64,000 bases of DNA from Gammaproteobacteria bacterium (lineage in GTDB: Bacteria; Pseudomonadota; Gammaproteobacteria; Steroidobacterales; GCA-2729495). The notes under the pieces are model-generated. The model did not search any database. It saw only the letters and a list, made by a program, of their open reading frames with translations, and was not told the DNA's origin. Positions 30,122 through 39,252 of the stretch are shown here, piece by piece. The stretch covers positions 1 to 64,000 of the forward strand of contig JASLMV010000007.1 in assembly GCA_030746435.1 (NCBI GenBank), in the 5' to 3' direction. The position numbers were made by a program, and so were the translations under genes. Within the stretch, counting starts at the first letter, position 1, and every line of letters starts with the position of its first letter.

Positions 30122-31129
30122 GTGACAACAATCAATCGGCGTGAGCTCATTCTGGGTACTTCGGTCGCAGGCCTGAACACATTGCTGCCTATGCGCGGTT
30201 GGGCGGCGGGTATCGATGATATTCCACGTAGTGACTATGGCTTCGCCACAACCGCGGATGATGTCGCTGCCAACATAGACCTGACCGGTAAGACAGTACT
30301 TATCACGGGCTGCAATTCAGGCCTGGGCTACGAGTCGATGCGGGTCATGGCCGCCCAGGGAGCACACGTAATCGGGGCGGCCCGCAATATGGAAAAGGCT
30401 GTGACCGCCTGCGAGAGCGTGGGGGGAAAGACAACGCCCGTCGTCTGCGAACTGACCGACTTCAACTCGGTGGTTGCATGCAGCGAGCGTGTTAAATCGC
30501 TCGATGAACCGATTGATATCCTGATGAATAACGCGGGCATCATGGCCCTGCCGAAACTTGAGCAGGTCTATGGCCTGGAAAAACAATTCGTCGTGAATCA
30601 CCTTGGTCATTTCTTACTTACAAAACATTTACTCAGCCGGGTAGAAGCAGCGCCGGAAGGCCGAATTGTTGTTTTGTCCAGTATCGGTTACCAGAACGCA
30701 CCTAAAAAGGAAGGTATTCAATTCGATAACCTCTCGGGTGAGAAGAGTTACAGCCCGTTTGTCGCATACGGACAAACCAAGCTTGCGAATGCACTGTTTG
30801 CATTCGAACTGGCGCGCCGTTATGAGGGCACCAGCGTAAGCGCCAATGCGGTACACCCCGGATTCGTCGCGACCGAGCTGGGCCGTCATGTACGCGGCGG
30901 CAAGCCGCGTGACCCCGATGAACCGCTGCGCAAAGGTTTCAAGACAGCCGATCAGGGCGCATCAACACAGGTCTATGTCGCGATTGAGCCCGCATTGAAA
31001 GGGGTCAGTGGTTATTATTTCGAGGACTGCAACCCGGTAGAGCCGACCGGCCCGCACATGCACGATACGGAACTTGCCGCGAATCTCTGGCAGGTGTCCG
31101 AGGAGCTGACCGCGGAATACCTGTCCTAG
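30122..31129 (+). CDS. Tat-signal short-chain dehydrogenase
   Basis: A protein of 335 residues with a GTG start at 30122 (GGGGGAA upstream). The N-terminus TTINRRELILGTSVAG is a Tat signal. The SDR core follows: GCNSGLGYESMRVMAAQG, NNAGIMALP, catalytic YGQTKLANALFAFELARR. The family resemblance is to retinol-dehydrogenase/WW-oxidoreductase-like SDRs. It is closely related to the Tat SDR at 38227 (both have EEVTAG/DDVAAN then DLTGKT and end in SEE). Tat export would allow the folded enzyme to leave with bound NAD(P). Its stop overlaps the convergent hydrolase gene by four bases. Confidence 0.85.
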   Translation: MTTINRRELILGTSVAGLNTLLPMRGWAAGIDDIPRSDYGFATTADDVAANIDLTGKTVLITGCNSGLGYESMRVMAAQGAHVIGAARNMEKAVTACESVGGKTTPVVCELTDFNSVVACSERVKSLDEPIDILMNNAGIMALPKLEQVYGLEKQFVVNHLGHFLLTKHLLSRVEAAPEGRIVVLSSIGYQNAPKKEGIQFDNLSGEKSYSPFVAYGQTKLANALFAFELARRYEGTSVSANAVHPGFVATELGRHVRGGKPRDPDEPLRKGFKTADQGASTQVYVAIEPALKGVSGYYFEDCNPVEPTGPHMHDTELAANLWQVSEELTAEYLS

Positions 31130-34028: not shown

Positions 34029-34889
34029 ATGACTTTGCGTCTTTTGAAGTCGACTAATCTTTCCATGGATAAGGATCCGGACCTTGATCTTGACGATCCG
34101 GAGGTTAATTTCAACTCCCTGCTGAAACTCAGGGGTGACCTGAGCGGCGACGATTTCTTTTTTGCATTTCCGGGCCAGGCCTGGGCGATGGTTCCGCAGG
34201 AGCAGAACTACCGGTGCTTTCGAACCTTTGGGTTTGGGTCAGGCCGATACGAGAAAGTCGACGAGGGTTACCGGATCTACAGCCGCGAGGTTTTGTATTA
34301 CCTCGATCCCGACACCGGGGAAATCCTCGAAGAGTGGGATAATCCCTTCCTGGATGGGCGCACTGTTAAAGTCGTGCATATTGCCAACGATCCGGTTAAT
34401 GGCGTGTTTTCACTCAAGGGGCCGGGGCCGCTGACACCACCGTACCCCTATGTAAGCATCGGCGATCATGTCGTGTTTCAGTGGAATTTCTTTATCCAGC
34501 ATCCTGCAGCGATGAACCGGAAGGACTATCCGTTGTATTCATCGGGGGACATCGATCAACACGCGGAGTTGTGGGGCCTGATGGGCCGCAAGAGCGATAT
34601 TCTGGATCCGGATACCACTTCGGCGTACTGCACGATGTCCTGGAGCCGGGTTGCCGACTGGCTGCCGTTTATGGAAATGGGCAATGCACCCGGCAAGATG
34701 GTATTCCACAGTCATTCCATGAAACTGATGGAAGGCCCGTCAGAACTGCCTCGGCCGATACTCGATTACATCGAGAAGCATCACTCGGAATACCTGACCG
34801 CGCCAACGGAATGGAACGGCCCACAGATGACCAGCTCCGCGGGTGAATTCAAGAAAATGATTGATGCGCGCCGGGCGGCAGGCGGCTGA
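34029..34889 (+). CDS. DUF1838-family protein
   Basis: A protein of 286 residues that matches the DUF1838 pattern: LRGDLSGDDFFFAFPGQAWA, SREVLYYLDPDTGEILEEWD and the later DYIEKHHSEYLTAP. The function of this family is not known; its conserved Trp, His and acidic residues suggest a small-molecule-binding barrel. No signal peptide, so cytoplasmic, whereas many relatives are exported. The start has GGAGAAGG upstream. It probably forms one operon with the methyltransferase. Confidence 0.75.
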   Translation: MTLRLLKSTNLSMDKDPDLDLDDPEVNFNSLLKLRGDLSGDDFFFAFPGQAWAMVPQEQNYRCFRTFGFGSGRYEKVDEGYRIYSREVLYYLDPDTGEILEEWDNPFLDGRTVKVVHIANDPVNGVFSLKGPGPLTPPYPYVSIGDHVVFQWNFFIQHPAAMNRKDYPLYSSGDIDQHAELWGLMGRKSDILDPDTTSAYCTMSWSRVADWLPFMEMGNAPGKMVFHSHSMKLMEGPSELPRPILDYIEKHHSEYLTAPTEWNGPQMTSSAGEFKKMIDARRAAGG

Positions 34890-34946
34890 ATCAGGCCCGC
34901 CTGGCGTTTGCCTGTCGCGAATATGAAAATCTGCAGCAAATAAAGA

Positions 34947-34968
34947 AGGGCCACATCGCTGCGGCCCT
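34947..34968 (-). terminator. Intrinsic terminator, minus strand
   Basis: AGGGCC at 34947-34952 pairs with GGCCCT at 34963-34968, with further partial pairing inside. On the minus strand the stem is followed by TCTTTATTTGC, a usable T-rich tract. On the plus strand it also lies 57 bases after the DUF1838 stop but without a T-run. Confidence 0.6.
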
Positions 34969-35038
34969 CCGTGAGATTGAATCGCTTCAACCTCCGGGCC
35001 ATCGCTATTGCCAGCGAGGCCCCTGATTATACGGTGCA

Positions 35039-35119
35039 TCAGCCGAACGGCGGAGGCTGCTCCACAAAACGACCGATACACCCAGGTTGATACGACTTAC
35101 TCGCTATCTCACTAGACAC
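35039..35119 (-). CDS. Putative 26-residue peptide with near-perfect ribosome binding site
   Basis: A GTG-started frame of 26 codons ending in TGA. The ribosome binding site AAGGAGGTGATCAC is essentially the full complement of the 16S rRNA tail, with eight bases between GGAGG and the GTG: the strongest Shine-Dalgarno in the window. The peptide begins VSSEIASKSYQPG, has a single Cys at residue 14 and ends FVEQPPPFG. No homologue is recognised and there is no membrane segment. The strong initiation signal plus own promoter and terminator argue that it is translated. A leader peptide, a peptide natural product precursor or a small regulator are all open. Confidence 0.4.
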   Translation of the reverse strand: MSSEIASKSYQPGCIGRFVEQPPPFG

Positions 35120-35157
35120 TGTGATCACCTCCTTGATAATGGCTGAACAAGGGGTTC

Positions 35158-35185
35158 AGTATCCCACAAAAATAGCGAATGACAA
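35158..35185 (-). promoter_or_regulatory. Sigma-70-like promoter with overlapping palindrome
   Basis: On the minus strand TTGTCA (35185-35180) and GATACT (35163-35158) are separated by 16 bases, five and four of six matches to consensus. A palindrome CTGAAC (35143-35148) / GTTCAG (35154-35159) touches the -10 element and could be an operator. A start of transcription near 35150 leaves a 30-base leader before the GTG at 35119. Confidence 0.4.
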
Positions 35186-35225: not shown

Positions 35226-35714
35226 TCAGAGTTGGAAGGACATCGTGCCGGTATCGGTTACGTGTATAGGGGCAAAGAAATTACCGGTACTCAGTTTGAC
35301 GCTGAATTCATAGACAAAACTGTCGCGGGGTTCAGTCGTCAGGCTGCGCGCAAACTGCATGCTGTGGAACAGGTCGGCCTGTGCATTGATCACAATTTCT
35401 GCCTGACCGTAGCCATCGATGGCCGGGAGTTCGTTACTCACGCCTGTCAGGATTTCATAGTTGTCGAGCTTGACGCTGTAAGAAGCGCCTTCGAGTTCGA
35501 GCGTTGCGTCGTTCGGGTTCGTGACCCACAGGCCTATTTCGAAACGCAACGTGACGCCGTCTGACGGCATGGGTTTGATATAGCTGACCGTAACCCCCGG
35601 CGCCTCATAATTCGGCGTCAGGCCTGCGCAGCCAGTGAGCAGCGCCAGCCCGCACATGCAGAATACATATGCGGCCTGGCGTGCCTGATATGGTTTAGAG
35701 CGGATCGATCTCAC
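35226..35714 (-). CDS. LEA type 2 / WHy-domain lipoprotein
   Basis: A protein of 162 residues from the GTG at 35714, which has GAAGG nine bases upstream and overlaps the previous gene by 20 bases; a longer frame to 35795 overlaps by 100 bases and is less likely. Signal peptide ends in the lipobox LLTGC. The mature domain fits the late-embryogenesis-abundant type 2 fold: LRFEIGLWVTNPNDATLELEGASYSVKLD and a C-terminal VTDTGTMSF. Such lipoproteins are common in gammaproteobacteria; the role is uncertain, possibly stress or envelope related. Transcribed with the upstream lipoprotein gene. Confidence 0.7.
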   Translation of the reverse strand: MRSIRSKPYQARQAAYVFCMCGLALLTGCAGLTPNYEAPGVTVSYIKPMPSDGVTLRFEIGLWVTNPNDATLELEGASYSVKLDNYEILTGVSNELPAIDGYGQAEIVINAQADLFHSMQFARSLTTEPRDSFVYEFSVKLSTGNFFAPIHVTDTGTMSFQL

Positions 35715-36702
35715 GGCATTTACCTTCGTCGCGCGGACCCGTCGGCGCATCACATTCAACACCTTCGAGCGCGACCCAGTAGGGCGTACCCGCAACGATC
35801 ATCGTGGATACCGATTTGTAGCCCGGGATGGCGGCGATATCGAGATTGGGCAGTGGCCCCACAATAATGTCCTGTTTACCTGCCTCGATCTGTGCATGGC
35901 AATCGGTCAGGTCCGATATGTAGCGCGTTGTCACTTTGTGCTCGGGCACGTATGCCTTGATTGTCTGAGTCGATAGCGGCCCGGCACATATACGTACATC
36001 CGGGCGGGCTCGCAGATCCGCCAGCGAGTTTAGTTCGCCTGCAAGTGCAGATTCCCGTGGTACGTGGATGTACTGCATCAGTCCGGACATAGTGCAGCCG
36101 AAGCGGCGGGAAGTACGGCGGCGCATATCCTGCGTTCGTCCGCCGGTTGCGTTGAGTTGGGAAACGAAGTCCACCTCGTCGTCGACCAGGGCGGAAGTGC
36201 TGGCCAGGGGTCCCGGCGGCTTGGCCACGTCTATCACCTCGATCTCGACTCCGTAATGGTTTTCGATCTCGGCAAAGATGAGGCCCATGTATTGATTGGT
36301 CGCACCCGAGAAGTAATAGGCCGTGTCTTTTGGCGTACTGGGAGCTGATTGAATCAGCCTGCGGATCTTGCCCGTTTCGAGGACCTTCTTTAAGAGGCCG
36401 GTTGGATTCTGGGGAAACGGGGTCAGGTGCGGCAGGGGTAAACAGTCGGCAATCCTGACTAAATATGACGACGCCAGTCCCGGCTGATTGGGCGGCTGGG
36501 TGGCGATGGCTTCTTCGGCCTTGCCACTTGCAACGACACGGACCCATGCCGCATCGAATGCACGGATCATTTGTTCGCGTCCTCGCGCCACATCGGCATC
36601 CTGCTCGCTACTGCCGGTCGTTGCGCATCCGGCGAGTACAGTTAGTGTCATGATACTGGCGATGGCCGTAATCACTGTCCGCATTCTGTTGTTTCGAATC
36701 AT
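35695..36702 (-). CDS. Periplasmic solute-binding-like lipoprotein
   Basis: A protein of 335 residues from the ATG at 36702. The signal RTVITAIASIMTLTV ends in the lipobox LAGC. The mature part resembles family 3 amino-acid-type binding proteins: YYFSGATNQYMGLIFAEIEN, VDFVSQLNATGG, ICAGPLSTQTIKAY, QDIIVGPLPNLD. There are about five Cys, two near the end (GVECDAP and GKCREID) that could form a disulfide. No transporter permease or ATPase gene is adjacent, so it may act as a sensor or orphan binding protein. It overlaps the following LEA-type lipoprotein gene. Confidence 0.6.
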   Translation of the reverse strand: MIRNNRMRTVITAIASIMTLTVLAGCATTGSSEQDADVARGREQMIRAFDAAWVRVVASGKAEEAIATQPPNQPGLASSYLVRIADCLPLPHLTPFPQNPTGLLKKVLETGKIRRLIQSAPSTPKDTAYYFSGATNQYMGLIFAEIENHYGVEIEVIDVAKPPGPLASTSALVDDEVDFVSQLNATGGRTQDMRRRTSRRFGCTMSGLMQYIHVPRESALAGELNSLADLRARPDVRICAGPLSTQTIKAYVPEHKVTTRYISDLTDCHAQIEAGKQDIIVGPLPNLDIAAIPGYKSVSTMIVAGTPYWVALEGVECDAPTGPRDEGKCREIDPL

Positions 36703-36870
36703 GACAAACCCGGTTCCCAATGTGTTAAAGGATTTTCACTGTACCTTAATTCAGCTGCAGGCCGTGCTATTTTCCGGCGACGACCGATGCACAAACACGG
36801 CCAGTGCACCGCCGATATGGCAGAATAGAGTACCTTCAGCGCCGGCACTCCTGCCGGGTTTACACGAGGT

Positions 36871-38256
36871 TTGCTGACTTTGTCTTCTGACCTGACAACG
36901 GGGCCAGTTCCTGCGCATTTGCGGCGCCAGGCCATACCCATGGGCCTGGGTTTGATCGCAATTATTTCCTTCGATGCGGTCGACCTGTTCTTCGTGTCAC
37001 GGCTTGGCGATATGCCACTGGCCGCGATCAGTTTTTGTTTTCCGGTCCTGTGGCTCCTGACGAGTGTGATCATCGGTTTCGAGGCCGGCGCTGCGTCGAC
37101 GATTTCACGCGCGGTCGGCCGTAACGACCGGTTGAGCGCGCGCCGCCAGACCACCGACACGGCTATGCTTGCCGGCCTTGTGGTTGCGGCCCTTTGCCTT
37201 GCCGGCCTGTTTACGATCGCGCCCGTGTTCGGGTTGCTCGGTGCAACCCCTGAAGTCATGCCCTTCGTAAGGGACTACATGGAAGTCTGGTACTGGTCGG
37301 CGCCCGTGTCGGCAGTAACCTGGATTTGCCTTGCGTCGATGCGCGCGCGCGGCAATACGATGCTCGAGGGCAAGATTATTATTATTGCCGCCGCCCTTAA
37401 CGCGATACTGGACCCCATCATGATCTTCGGCCTGCTCGGTTTCCCGCGGTTGGAGATTGCCGGCGCAGCCTGGGCGACACTGACTTCGAATATGCTGGTG
37501 CTTACGGGCACACTCGGGTATCTGCACTTCGGCTTGCGTGTGTTCGCTACGCCATTTACGCACATACGCAACGTGATGGATTCATGGGGACGCATGCTGC
37601 ATGTAGGTTTGCCGGCCATGCTGACCAATGCCATCGTGCCGCTTGCGAACGGTATTGTTGTGGCGTTGCTGGCCACTTACGGTGTCGATGCCGTGGCAGG
37701 TTTCGGCGTGGCTATACGTATCGAGCCGATCGCATTGATAGCGTTCTATGCGATGTCGGCGATAACCAGCCCGTTTATGGGTCAGAACATTGCGGCCCAC
37801 AAGTTCGGACGGCTGGATGAAGCGCGCCGGACTATCGGGAAGTTCGCGGTTGTCTACGGACTGATCCTGACCGTTGCGTTCGCTTTCCTTGCCGGGCCGT
37901 TAACGGCGGTATTCACCGATACCGAAAGCATCCAGACGGTTGCGGTCGAATACCTGTGGATCATGGTGATTAGTTACGCCGGTTACGGCATCGTCATGTC
38001 CATGTGCGCTGGCTTCAATGGCATCGGCGACCCGCTGCCGGGTGTTGCGATTTCGGCGTCGCGGGCCTTCGTCGTGTTCCTGCCGCTCGCCTTTGCGGGG
38101 CAGGCACTGATCGGCATGAATGGCATTTTTGTCGCTGCCGCGATTTCAAACCTGGTTTTGGGCATAGCGGCGTATACCTGGTTCGGCCGGCACATAAGGC
38201 GCGACGAGGCAACACATCGCGCGGGCTCAGACATAGCCAGCAGCGATCTCCTCTGA
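36871..38256 (+). CDS. MATE-family efflux transporter
   Basis: A protein of about 461 residues with twelve membrane helices and MATE character: IPMGLGLIAIISFDAVDLFFVSRLGD at the start, IIGFEAGAASTISRAVG, and repeated second half VAGFGVAIRIEPIALIAFYAMS, ITSPFMGQNIAA. MATE proteins export drugs or metabolites using Na+ or H+. The start is uncertain: TTG at 36871 or TTG at 36880, the latter spaced better from CGAGG. It overlaps the convergent SDR gene by 30 bases. It could export a product of this region, but nothing ties it to the NRPS cluster 20 kb away. Confidence 0.85.
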   Translation: MLTLSSDLTTGPVPAHLRRQAIPMGLGLIAIISFDAVDLFFVSRLGDMPLAAISFCFPVLWLLTSVIIGFEAGAASTISRAVGRNDRLSARRQTTDTAMLAGLVVAALCLAGLFTIAPVFGLLGATPEVMPFVRDYMEVWYWSAPVSAVTWICLASMRARGNTMLEGKIIIIAAALNAILDPIMIFGLLGFPRLEIAGAAWATLTSNMLVLTGTLGYLHFGLRVFATPFTHIRNVMDSWGRMLHVGLPAMLTNAIVPLANGIVVALLATYGVDAVAGFGVAIRIEPIALIAFYAMSAITSPFMGQNIAAHKFGRLDEARRTIGKFAVVYGLILTVAFAFLAGPLTAVFTDTESIQTVAVEYLWIMVISYAGYGIVMSMCAGFNGIGDPLPGVAISASRAFVVFLPLAFAGQALIGMNGIFVAAAISNLVLGIAAYTWFGRHIRRDEATHRAGSDIASSDLL

Positions 38257-39252
38257 TACCGCCCACAGTTTCGCGGCCATCTCGGTGTCTTCGGTATAAC
38301 CACCGGCGCGAATCGGGTTGCAGTGCTCGAAGAAATAGCCGCTCGTCTCGCTCAATGCCGGCGCCGTGGCGACGTAACAGGTGGTCGCCGCCCCCTGGCC
38401 CATGGTCTTGGTAAACAGCGAGCCGACGGTTTCGAGTGCGATGACTTGCCAGCGAGGCAGATGCCGGCCGAGGTTCGTTGCTATGACCCCCGGGCGTAAT
38501 GCGTTCGCCGTTGCACGGGTGTCTCGCAGGCGTCGTGCAAGTTCAAGCGTGAACAGTACGTTTGCCAGTTTGGATTGCCCGTAGGCCTTGCTCGGGTCGT
38601 AGCCCGCTTCGCCGGAGAGATTATCGAACTGGATGCCTTCTTCCGGTGGGTTGCCGGTCGCGCGTCCGCTGCTAACGTTGATGATGCGTCCCTGGGGTGA
38701 GGCGACGACCTGTTCGAGCAATTGATTGACGAGGACGAAATGTCCGATATGGTTTACGAAGAATTGCTTCTCGAAGCCGTTGACCTGTTCGAGTTCCGGC
38801 AGTTGCATGATGCCCGCGTTGCAGATGAGCATGTCGATCGGGATATTCATGCTACGTATCTGCCCGGCGGTAGTGGCAATCGTATCGAGTTCGGTCAGCT
38901 CGACCACGATCGGCGTCGTACGGCCCTCGACGCTTGCGCAGGCGTCCGCGGCCTTTTCCGGCGTGCGGGCGGCACCGAGCACATGAGCGCCGCGCAGCGC
39001 CAGGACACGCATGGTTTCGAAGCCGATCCCCGAGTTGCAGCCCGTCACCAGGGCGGTCTTGCCAGTGAGGTCGAGTCCGGCGGTTACTTCTTCCGCGGTG
39101 GAATTTGCGCCGAAGGGTCCGACCGGGACACCCGCGGGCCGTGGCAGATCATTCGATGTGCATGCACTTAGCGTGGCCACCGGAGGTGCGGCAAAAAGGG
39201 CAGGTGCAGCCTTAAGGAATCGGCGGCGCTGGTAAGAAAACTCCATGCTCAT
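38227..39252 (-). CDS. Tat-signal short-chain dehydrogenase, second copy
   Basis: A protein of 341 residues. Tat signal with three arginines (YQRRRFLKAAPALFAAPP) and a possible lipobox (LSAC). The SDR core follows: GCNSGIGFETMRVLALRG, CNAGIMQLPELEQVNGFEKQ, catalytic YGQSKLANVLFTLELARR. It is clearly related to the SDR at 30122 along the whole length. In-frame ATGs at 39252 and 39246; an AGGGA upstream favours 39246. It converges on the MATE gene with a 30-base overlap. Confidence 0.85.
   Translation of the reverse strand: MSMEFSYQRRRFLKAAPALFAAPPVATLSACTSNDLPRPAGVPVGPFGANSTAEEVTAGLDLTGKTALVTGCNSGIGFETMRVLALRGAHVLGAARTPEKAADACASVEGRTTPIVVELTELDTIATTAGQIRSMNIPIDMLICNAGIMQLPELEQVNGFEKQFFVNHIGHFVLVNQLLEQVVASPQGRIINVSSGRATGNPPEEGIQFDNLSGEAGYDPSKAYGQSKLANVLFTLELARRLRDTRATANALRPGVIATNLGRHLPRWQVIALETVGSLFTKTMGQGAATTCYVATAPALSETSGYFFEHCNPIRAGGYTEDTEMAAKLWAVSEEIAAGYV

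Follow-up and report, generated by a model that had tools for sequence, protein, structure and literature searches.

CC2171 was reportedly named as a family by Landt in 2008. Its Rfam entry, RF01867, files it as an sRNA and names no reading frame in type or description. The family name and the terminator-ended sRNA are what was already known of it, and within the literature searched only PMC5596092 and PMC11701678 mention CC2171 or RF01867. For Sinorhizobium meliloti, PMC10117765 describes rnTrpL as a small RNA from which a short frame is translated, but that RNA is leaderless, codes for a functional peptide of 14 aa and originates from the trpE attenuator, whereas the element described here has an extreme Shine-Dalgarno (SD) sequence, no gene in cis and an unconstrained peptide. 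PMC10117765 also places 33% of 54 translated non-annotated S. meliloti sORFs on annotated sRNAs, and PMC4117421 describes two formerly predicted Caulobacter ncRNAs as translated. Long pairing of SD and 16S rRNA near the start codon is also found in Staphylococcus aureus, where it belongs to initiation in general according to PMC13009471, whereas the 12-mer of our element is singular in its genome. Dual-function sRNAs differ as well in that they encode a peptide that is itself functional. Judging from covariance models, the element is a divergent gammaproteobacterial branch of the sRNA family CC2171 that lies below the Rfam cut-off.

The window is the whole stretch of 64,000 nucleotides that was analysed, and the minus-strand element at about 35151-34938 in it is real and is a gene. 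Its sigma-70-type promoter TTGTCA-16-GATACT occupies 35158-35185 (TTGTCA at 35185-35180, a 16-nt spacer and GATACT at 35163-35158), and we infer the 5' end of the transcript 7 nt behind the -10 box, which gives a predicted RNA of about 210 nt (34938-35151) with its 3' end at a T run. The extended SD AAGGAGGTGATCAC (35121-35134) contains the 12-mer AAGGAGGTGATC and is followed by the 26-codon frame VSSEIASKSYQPGCIGRFVEQPPPFG (35039-35119), which runs from GTG at 35119 to TGA at 35041-35039. Behind it come a predicted bulged hairpin, GGGCCTCGCTGGCAATAGCGATGGCCC (34996-35022), which falls largely in gap columns of the relatives and is an insertion in the window's species, and an intrinsic terminator (34938-34970) with an 11-pair stem (34970-34945) and a T run. 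Promoter, SD, frame, bulged hairpin and terminator are packed into about 245 bases. All these parts had been listed in the initial annotation and are present, as is the palindrome CTGAAC/GTTCAG (35159-35143), which had been taken as a regulatory site; this role was dropped as the palindrome is not conserved, the close relative L002 having CTGACC/GTTCAG and the other compared sequences being without it. Single consensus scans are weak alone, with 3 promoter-like sites against 1.0 expected and 1 terminator against 1.0, yet the element as a whole is far beyond chance. The folding energy of the predicted RNA has z = -6.1 (0 of 200 shuffles equally stable), 22 of 25 relatives have a -10-like [ACG]ATA[CT]T in the corresponding position, where shuffling predicts 0.55, and the 12-mer occurs a single time in the 2.43-Mb assembly (G000).

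At its own cut-offs Rfam gave no match in the window, and the initial annotation held that nothing in the element matches a known family. This has to be revised, as the CC2171 model matches the window over its full length with 19 bits and E=0.044 when 341 bases are searched, where the gathering score is 75, and matches four of six relatives of the window with 29 to 42 bits (E 4.7e-6 to 0.0085, below the gathering score), the best among the six being L005 (4.7e-6) and L020 (3.4e-5). Among 18 alphaproteobacterial loci, ten pass the CC2171 cut-off, and one sphingomonad, one Rhodobacterales, one Bradyrhizobium and five other loci lie below it. For the opposite direction we used covariance model R1, built from the 16 members of alignment A2, which includes the window and holds no alphaproteobacterial sequences; A2 left out L008, L010, L014, L020, L021, L086, L186, L187, L193 and L195 for length, divergence or a bad end. 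R1 scores 129.8 bits at 34940-35148 of the window, itself one of the 16 training sequences, and among alphaproteobacterial loci outside its training it matches L132 (91.9 bits), L098 (59.5) and L107 (35.7), more weakly L105 (32.9 bits), L102 (25.8), L067 (19.4) and L031 (18.4), with no match in L032, L047 and L033. Matches both ways, from CC2171 to the gammaproteobacterial loci and from R1 to the alphaproteobacterial ones, argue for common descent, and we read the RNAs of the two classes as one family, wider than RF01867. The window and CC2171 share the order AAGGAGGUGAUCC, RUGUCU, closing helix, GGA and terminator, and the CC2171 consensus also holds a short frame, of 22 codons and ending in UAA. 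The 5' block AAGGAGGUGAUCC-N-RUGUCU of CC2171 is present in the window as AAGGAGGTGATCACAGTGTCT, with ACA replacing CA behind GATC. The position of the closing helix, behind the 5' block and before the terminator, is also held by the window's helix, although its sequence is another one (GTGAGAT/ATCTCAC against CATTGTC/GACAATG). As a separate observation, one strand of L151:1354-3020 carries a match to CC2171 and, about 1.2 kb from it, an alphaproteobacterial tmRNA.

Blastn recovers the element from 23 of 60 related genomes, a count that includes the genome of the window. A covariance search in relatives, the check named in the initial annotation, detects it at E<=1e-3 in 32 of the 40 genomes searched from the window's family; 27 of these exceed 60 bits with one strong match each, and the 8 genomes without a match include two of the window's genus. 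Across the class, 10 of 274 genomes match at E<=1e-4, and the strong matches are the window, G650 and G042 only. The exact pattern is present in 40 of 157 genomes of the window's order, and in the phylum 47 of 398 genomes match the pattern AAGGAGGTGATCN{1,4}TGTCT, its reversed form matching in 0. At least 118 stretches from named genomes match this pattern, and the titles among the matches listed are mostly of Alphaproteobacteria, with one named Woeseiaceae record. Comparison shows the element to be, as far as sequence can tell, an independent, single-copy RNA gene that is conserved as one unit.

For the comparison of frames, the pattern gave 167 places. Ten of them, L036, L048, L064, L080, L094, L100, L116, L118, L140 and L144, were judged to be chance matches and removed; most are from other phyla, start with TTG or are long genes. 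Members without a recognised terminator were dropped, leaving 134, and dereplication left 108; L042 is cut by its locus end, and L104, with a 59-aa frame, was additionally set aside for the comparison of neighbouring genes. The clade labels sphing, rhodob, brady, VSH, rhizobiac and woes were assigned by peptide start and record titles, and 'woes' comprises the window's family together with a few more from the same order. The pattern demanded TGTCT, and the constancy of these bases is therefore not evidence, while the base preceding them was free.

The frame is kept open in all members. Of the 108 members, 0 have a stop in the first 12 codons of frame 0, compared with 49 for frame 1, 38 for frame 2 and a mean of 37 (minimum 20) in 300 shuffles of the bodies; the 44 very divergent members have 0 in frame against 26 and 18. 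An in-frame stop precedes the terminator in 108/108, whereas it is missing for 20 members in frame 1 and for 23 in frame 2, and 107 of the 108 start with ATG or GTG. The length of the frame is fixed by clade, at 18 codons in 13/13 Rhodobacterales and 23/25 sphingomonads, 14 codons in 4/4 Bradyrhizobium and 26 codons in 14/21 of the window's group, and TAA, TAG and TGA swap for one another at the clade-fixed stop position. The peptide, in contrast, drifts. In five clades pN/pS is 0.99, 0.76, 1.45, 0.96 and 0.84, not consistently lower than out of frame, and the third codon position shows no excess in any of them; in the window's group substitutions fall evenly on the codon positions (0.341, 0.316 and 0.343). 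As the frame stays open and properly ended while the peptide changes, translation itself and not the peptide seems to matter, translation being strongly suggested by this comparison. The proposal of the initial annotation, a small gene that stands by itself, its frame translated within a structured RNA, is supported by blastn, the helix swap test described below, the frame stops and the covariance model. That annotation had also taken free drift of both peptide and stems as speaking against a gene; the drift is found for the peptide, whereas the stems are kept by covariation.

These numbers bear on whether the locus is a gene for a small functional peptide, which we consider very unlikely. The motif MSSEI..VS..P..LG...EQPS recurs at 26 codons in gammaproteobacterial members, and peptide similarity is in slight excess in two gammaproteobacterial sets (z 2.45 and 3.02), which may reflect a minor constraint on the peptide or could be a product of conserved RNA pairs, on which several of the conserved residues fall. 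However, peptides of different clades show no resemblance, and as the main reading a functional peptide is ruled out by pN/pS and the codon positions, so that the regulated peptide or peptide precursor suggested earlier finds no backing. By eye the peptide does not look like a hydrophobic helix, as would be expected of the toxin in a type I toxin-antitoxin pair.

The part of the element that is conserved across classes is the ribosome-binding block. Its core AAGGAGGTGATC, the most conserved sequence of the element, recurs in Alphaproteobacteria and is complementary to what we take to be the 16S rRNA tail, GATCACCUCCUU, a general 16S sequence and not one read from the window's clade. In the window's family the consensus fold lets the SD pair with GGAGCAGCCUUC in the frame, and the frame segment TGTGGAGCAGCCTCC (35052-35066) is able to pair with it, as in the RNAalifold consensus. 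The window itself reaches z -1.96 in the shuffle test of this pairing, but the mean of its clade is -0.36, no better than chance, and hiding of the SD is equally unsupported in sphingomonads (mean z -0.24) and VSH (-0.61). It is supported in Rhodobacterales (mean z -2.2) and Bradyrhizobium (-2.3). As a universal feature, internal hiding of the SD was dropped, given these scores in the window's clade, sphingomonads and VSH. Among individual loci, the Bradyrhizobium members L067, L073, L082 and others have a KRCHLAGIAR-coding stretch that looks nearly invariant in nucleotides and in which most of the predicted folds pair TCACCTC with the SD. In the Rhodobacterales L031, L041, L092 and others, either the SD or the frame can be paired by CACCTCCT or CATCTCCTT, which lies a short distance ahead of the terminator.

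Two other roles of the RNA were weighed. It could be a sink or sensor of ribosomes, using its extended SD to act directly on free 30S subunits or to measure them. The conservation of the block would suit such a role, as would the ability of several clades to hide the SD with an internal copy of the 16S end; in L096 (Rhodospirillaceae, minus strand), GCGGATCACCTCCG inside the RNA, presumably such a copy, pairs with the RNA's own SD at -24.5 kcal/mol. The chance-level hiding in the window's clade speaks against it, and a sink would need an abundance near that of ribosomes, so that we find this role quite unlikely, although a ribosome-sensing function stays in view because the most conserved part across classes is the one that meets the 30S subunit. 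The RNA could also be an ordinary trans-acting CC2171 sRNA, its frame and SD being incidental or protective and its anti-SD-like segment pairing with target mRNAs. The filing of the family as sRNA in Rfam is in line with this, as are the CCUCC-like segments in Rhodobacterales, Bradyrhizobium and others, which underlie the shuffle scores given above for the two named clades. An incidental frame, however, sits poorly with one that is open, started and stopped in nearly every member, and the sequence conserved across classes is no seed; we hold an ordinary trans-acting sRNA to be rather unlikely.

Besides the frame, the closing helix P1 is retained through its rewriting. Its 5' strand GTGAGAT (35106-35112) lies within the frame directly behind RUGUCU, and its 3' strand ATCTCAC (34971-34977) adjoins the terminator on its 5' side. 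The sequence is rewritten clade by clade with pairing kept, being CATTGTC/GACAATG in Rhizobiales and Caulobacterales and CATGGTTCAGC/GCTGACCATG in sphingomonads. As RNAalifold on MAFFT alignments gave poor consensus folds in most groups, we used an alignment-free swap test, in which the own strands of the 108 members pair at -12.3 kcal/mol against -7.8 for swapped strands (z=-14.4) and own pairing beats the swapped mean in 102/108; pair counts were also made for both strands. The covariation signal is seen in comparisons between clades and, inside single groups, in VSH, 'other' and rhizobiac. It is absent inside the window's clade, where P1 hardly varies and 4317 of 5000 permutations are as good, and also inside sphingomonads, Rhodobacterales and Bradyrhizobium. 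The 5' strands of P2 and P3 on the frame side (35084-35102) are predicted to pair with 34993-34979, and their 3' strands (34979-34993) are placed by the predicted fold and pair counts. In the window's family 4 of 7 P2 pairs show changes in both strands; P1, P2 and P3 together have 13 both-side-change cells against 4.6 in shuffles. Comparison shows an RNA gene that combines helix P1, a conserved start and an open, properly stopped frame with an unconstrained peptide.

A hairpin H3, GAGGTTGAA-GCGA-TTCAATCTC (34973-34994), can form in place of P1/P2 by pairing between the 3' strands of these two helices, and is predicted when the frame is occupied. In H3, 97.9% of cells are paired and two pairs have changes on both sides. 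We consider it somewhat better than an even chance that the element is an independent RNA of the CC2171 branch whose fold is switched by translation of its own frame, the peptide being irrelevant. The 5' module, with its near-complete complementarity to the 16S tail, would load a ribosome, which would translate the short frame whatever its peptide. As the frame holds the 5' strands of P1, P2 and P3 and their 3' strands lie between the stop codon and the terminator, an occupied frame would block the three helices and, in the window's family, the 3' strands would refold into H3; without ribosome loading the closed form P1/P2 would take over. Through this change of fold the RNA would report its own translation, or the availability of ribosomes. 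In silico, blocking the frame brings the probability of H3 to >=0.99 in 17/17 members with the H3 motif, window included, and the stop codon precedes H3 in 18/18 members. For the free RNA P1 is predicted to dominate in most members, with L002, L003, L186 and L195 already preferring H3 and L020 neither. The two-state fold switch predicted by these foldings is not universal, since L009, L010, L020, L021 and L086 lack the H3 motif and the free RNA of four members already forms H3. More tentatively, such RNAs may make up a class of Alphaproteobacteria and some Gammaproteobacteria with the ribosome as ligand, loaded by the complement of the 16S tail, carried through the 5' strands by a frame for an arbitrary peptide and released by the stop before the alternative hairpin, so that initiation capacity would be sensed without an encoded product.

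Frame, alternative helices and terminator also resemble a leader-peptide attenuator that controls a downstream gene in cis. A gene with an LEA_2 domain, on the strand of the element, ends upstream of it, and the next gene downstream, a DUF1838 gene (34029-34889 +), is convergent, so that the transcript stands alone. No neighbour is common to different clades, the largest mainly downstream gene family being found at 7 loci, and the alternative helices share no bases with the terminator. The differing neighbours and the convergent next gene argue against an attenuator in cis, which synteny rules out and which, barring a read-through product, is already refuted for the window; we find it hardly credible. 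Since no downstream gene is common to the clades, a translation-switched RNA should have its effect in trans or on its own stability, and trans activity or stability of the RNA is the most likely output, although neither a target nor a downstream gene was found as such.

Selection on translation and not on the peptide is a signature known chiefly from cis-acting leader peptides, and unlike these the present RNA has no cis gene common to the clades. An orphan sRNA family appears to be part of a larger one under such selection. Filters for peptide conservation would discard genes of this kind, and tools for RNA structure would call them non-coding. The frame, its conservation with a free peptide and the wider family had no description in the literature searched (outside Landt 2008 and the Caulobacter dataset), and as far as that literature goes the translated frame, the free peptide and the wider family are new. 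In the text available of PMC5082802 the Bradyrhizobium peptide has no match, and in that of PMC6943124 the anti-16S letters occur solely as test oligonucleotides. Caulobacter, in which CC2171 was named, offers a direct experiment.

Apart from these, two features were seen in the surroundings of the element. A 341-aa lipoprotein-like frame without a Pfam match at 1e-3 lies upstream at 35695-36720, and a relative of it also lies upstream of the element in L002. The window also encodes, by eye, two similar short-chain dehydrogenase-like proteins at 30122-31129 and 38227-39252, on opposite strands and about 7 kb apart.
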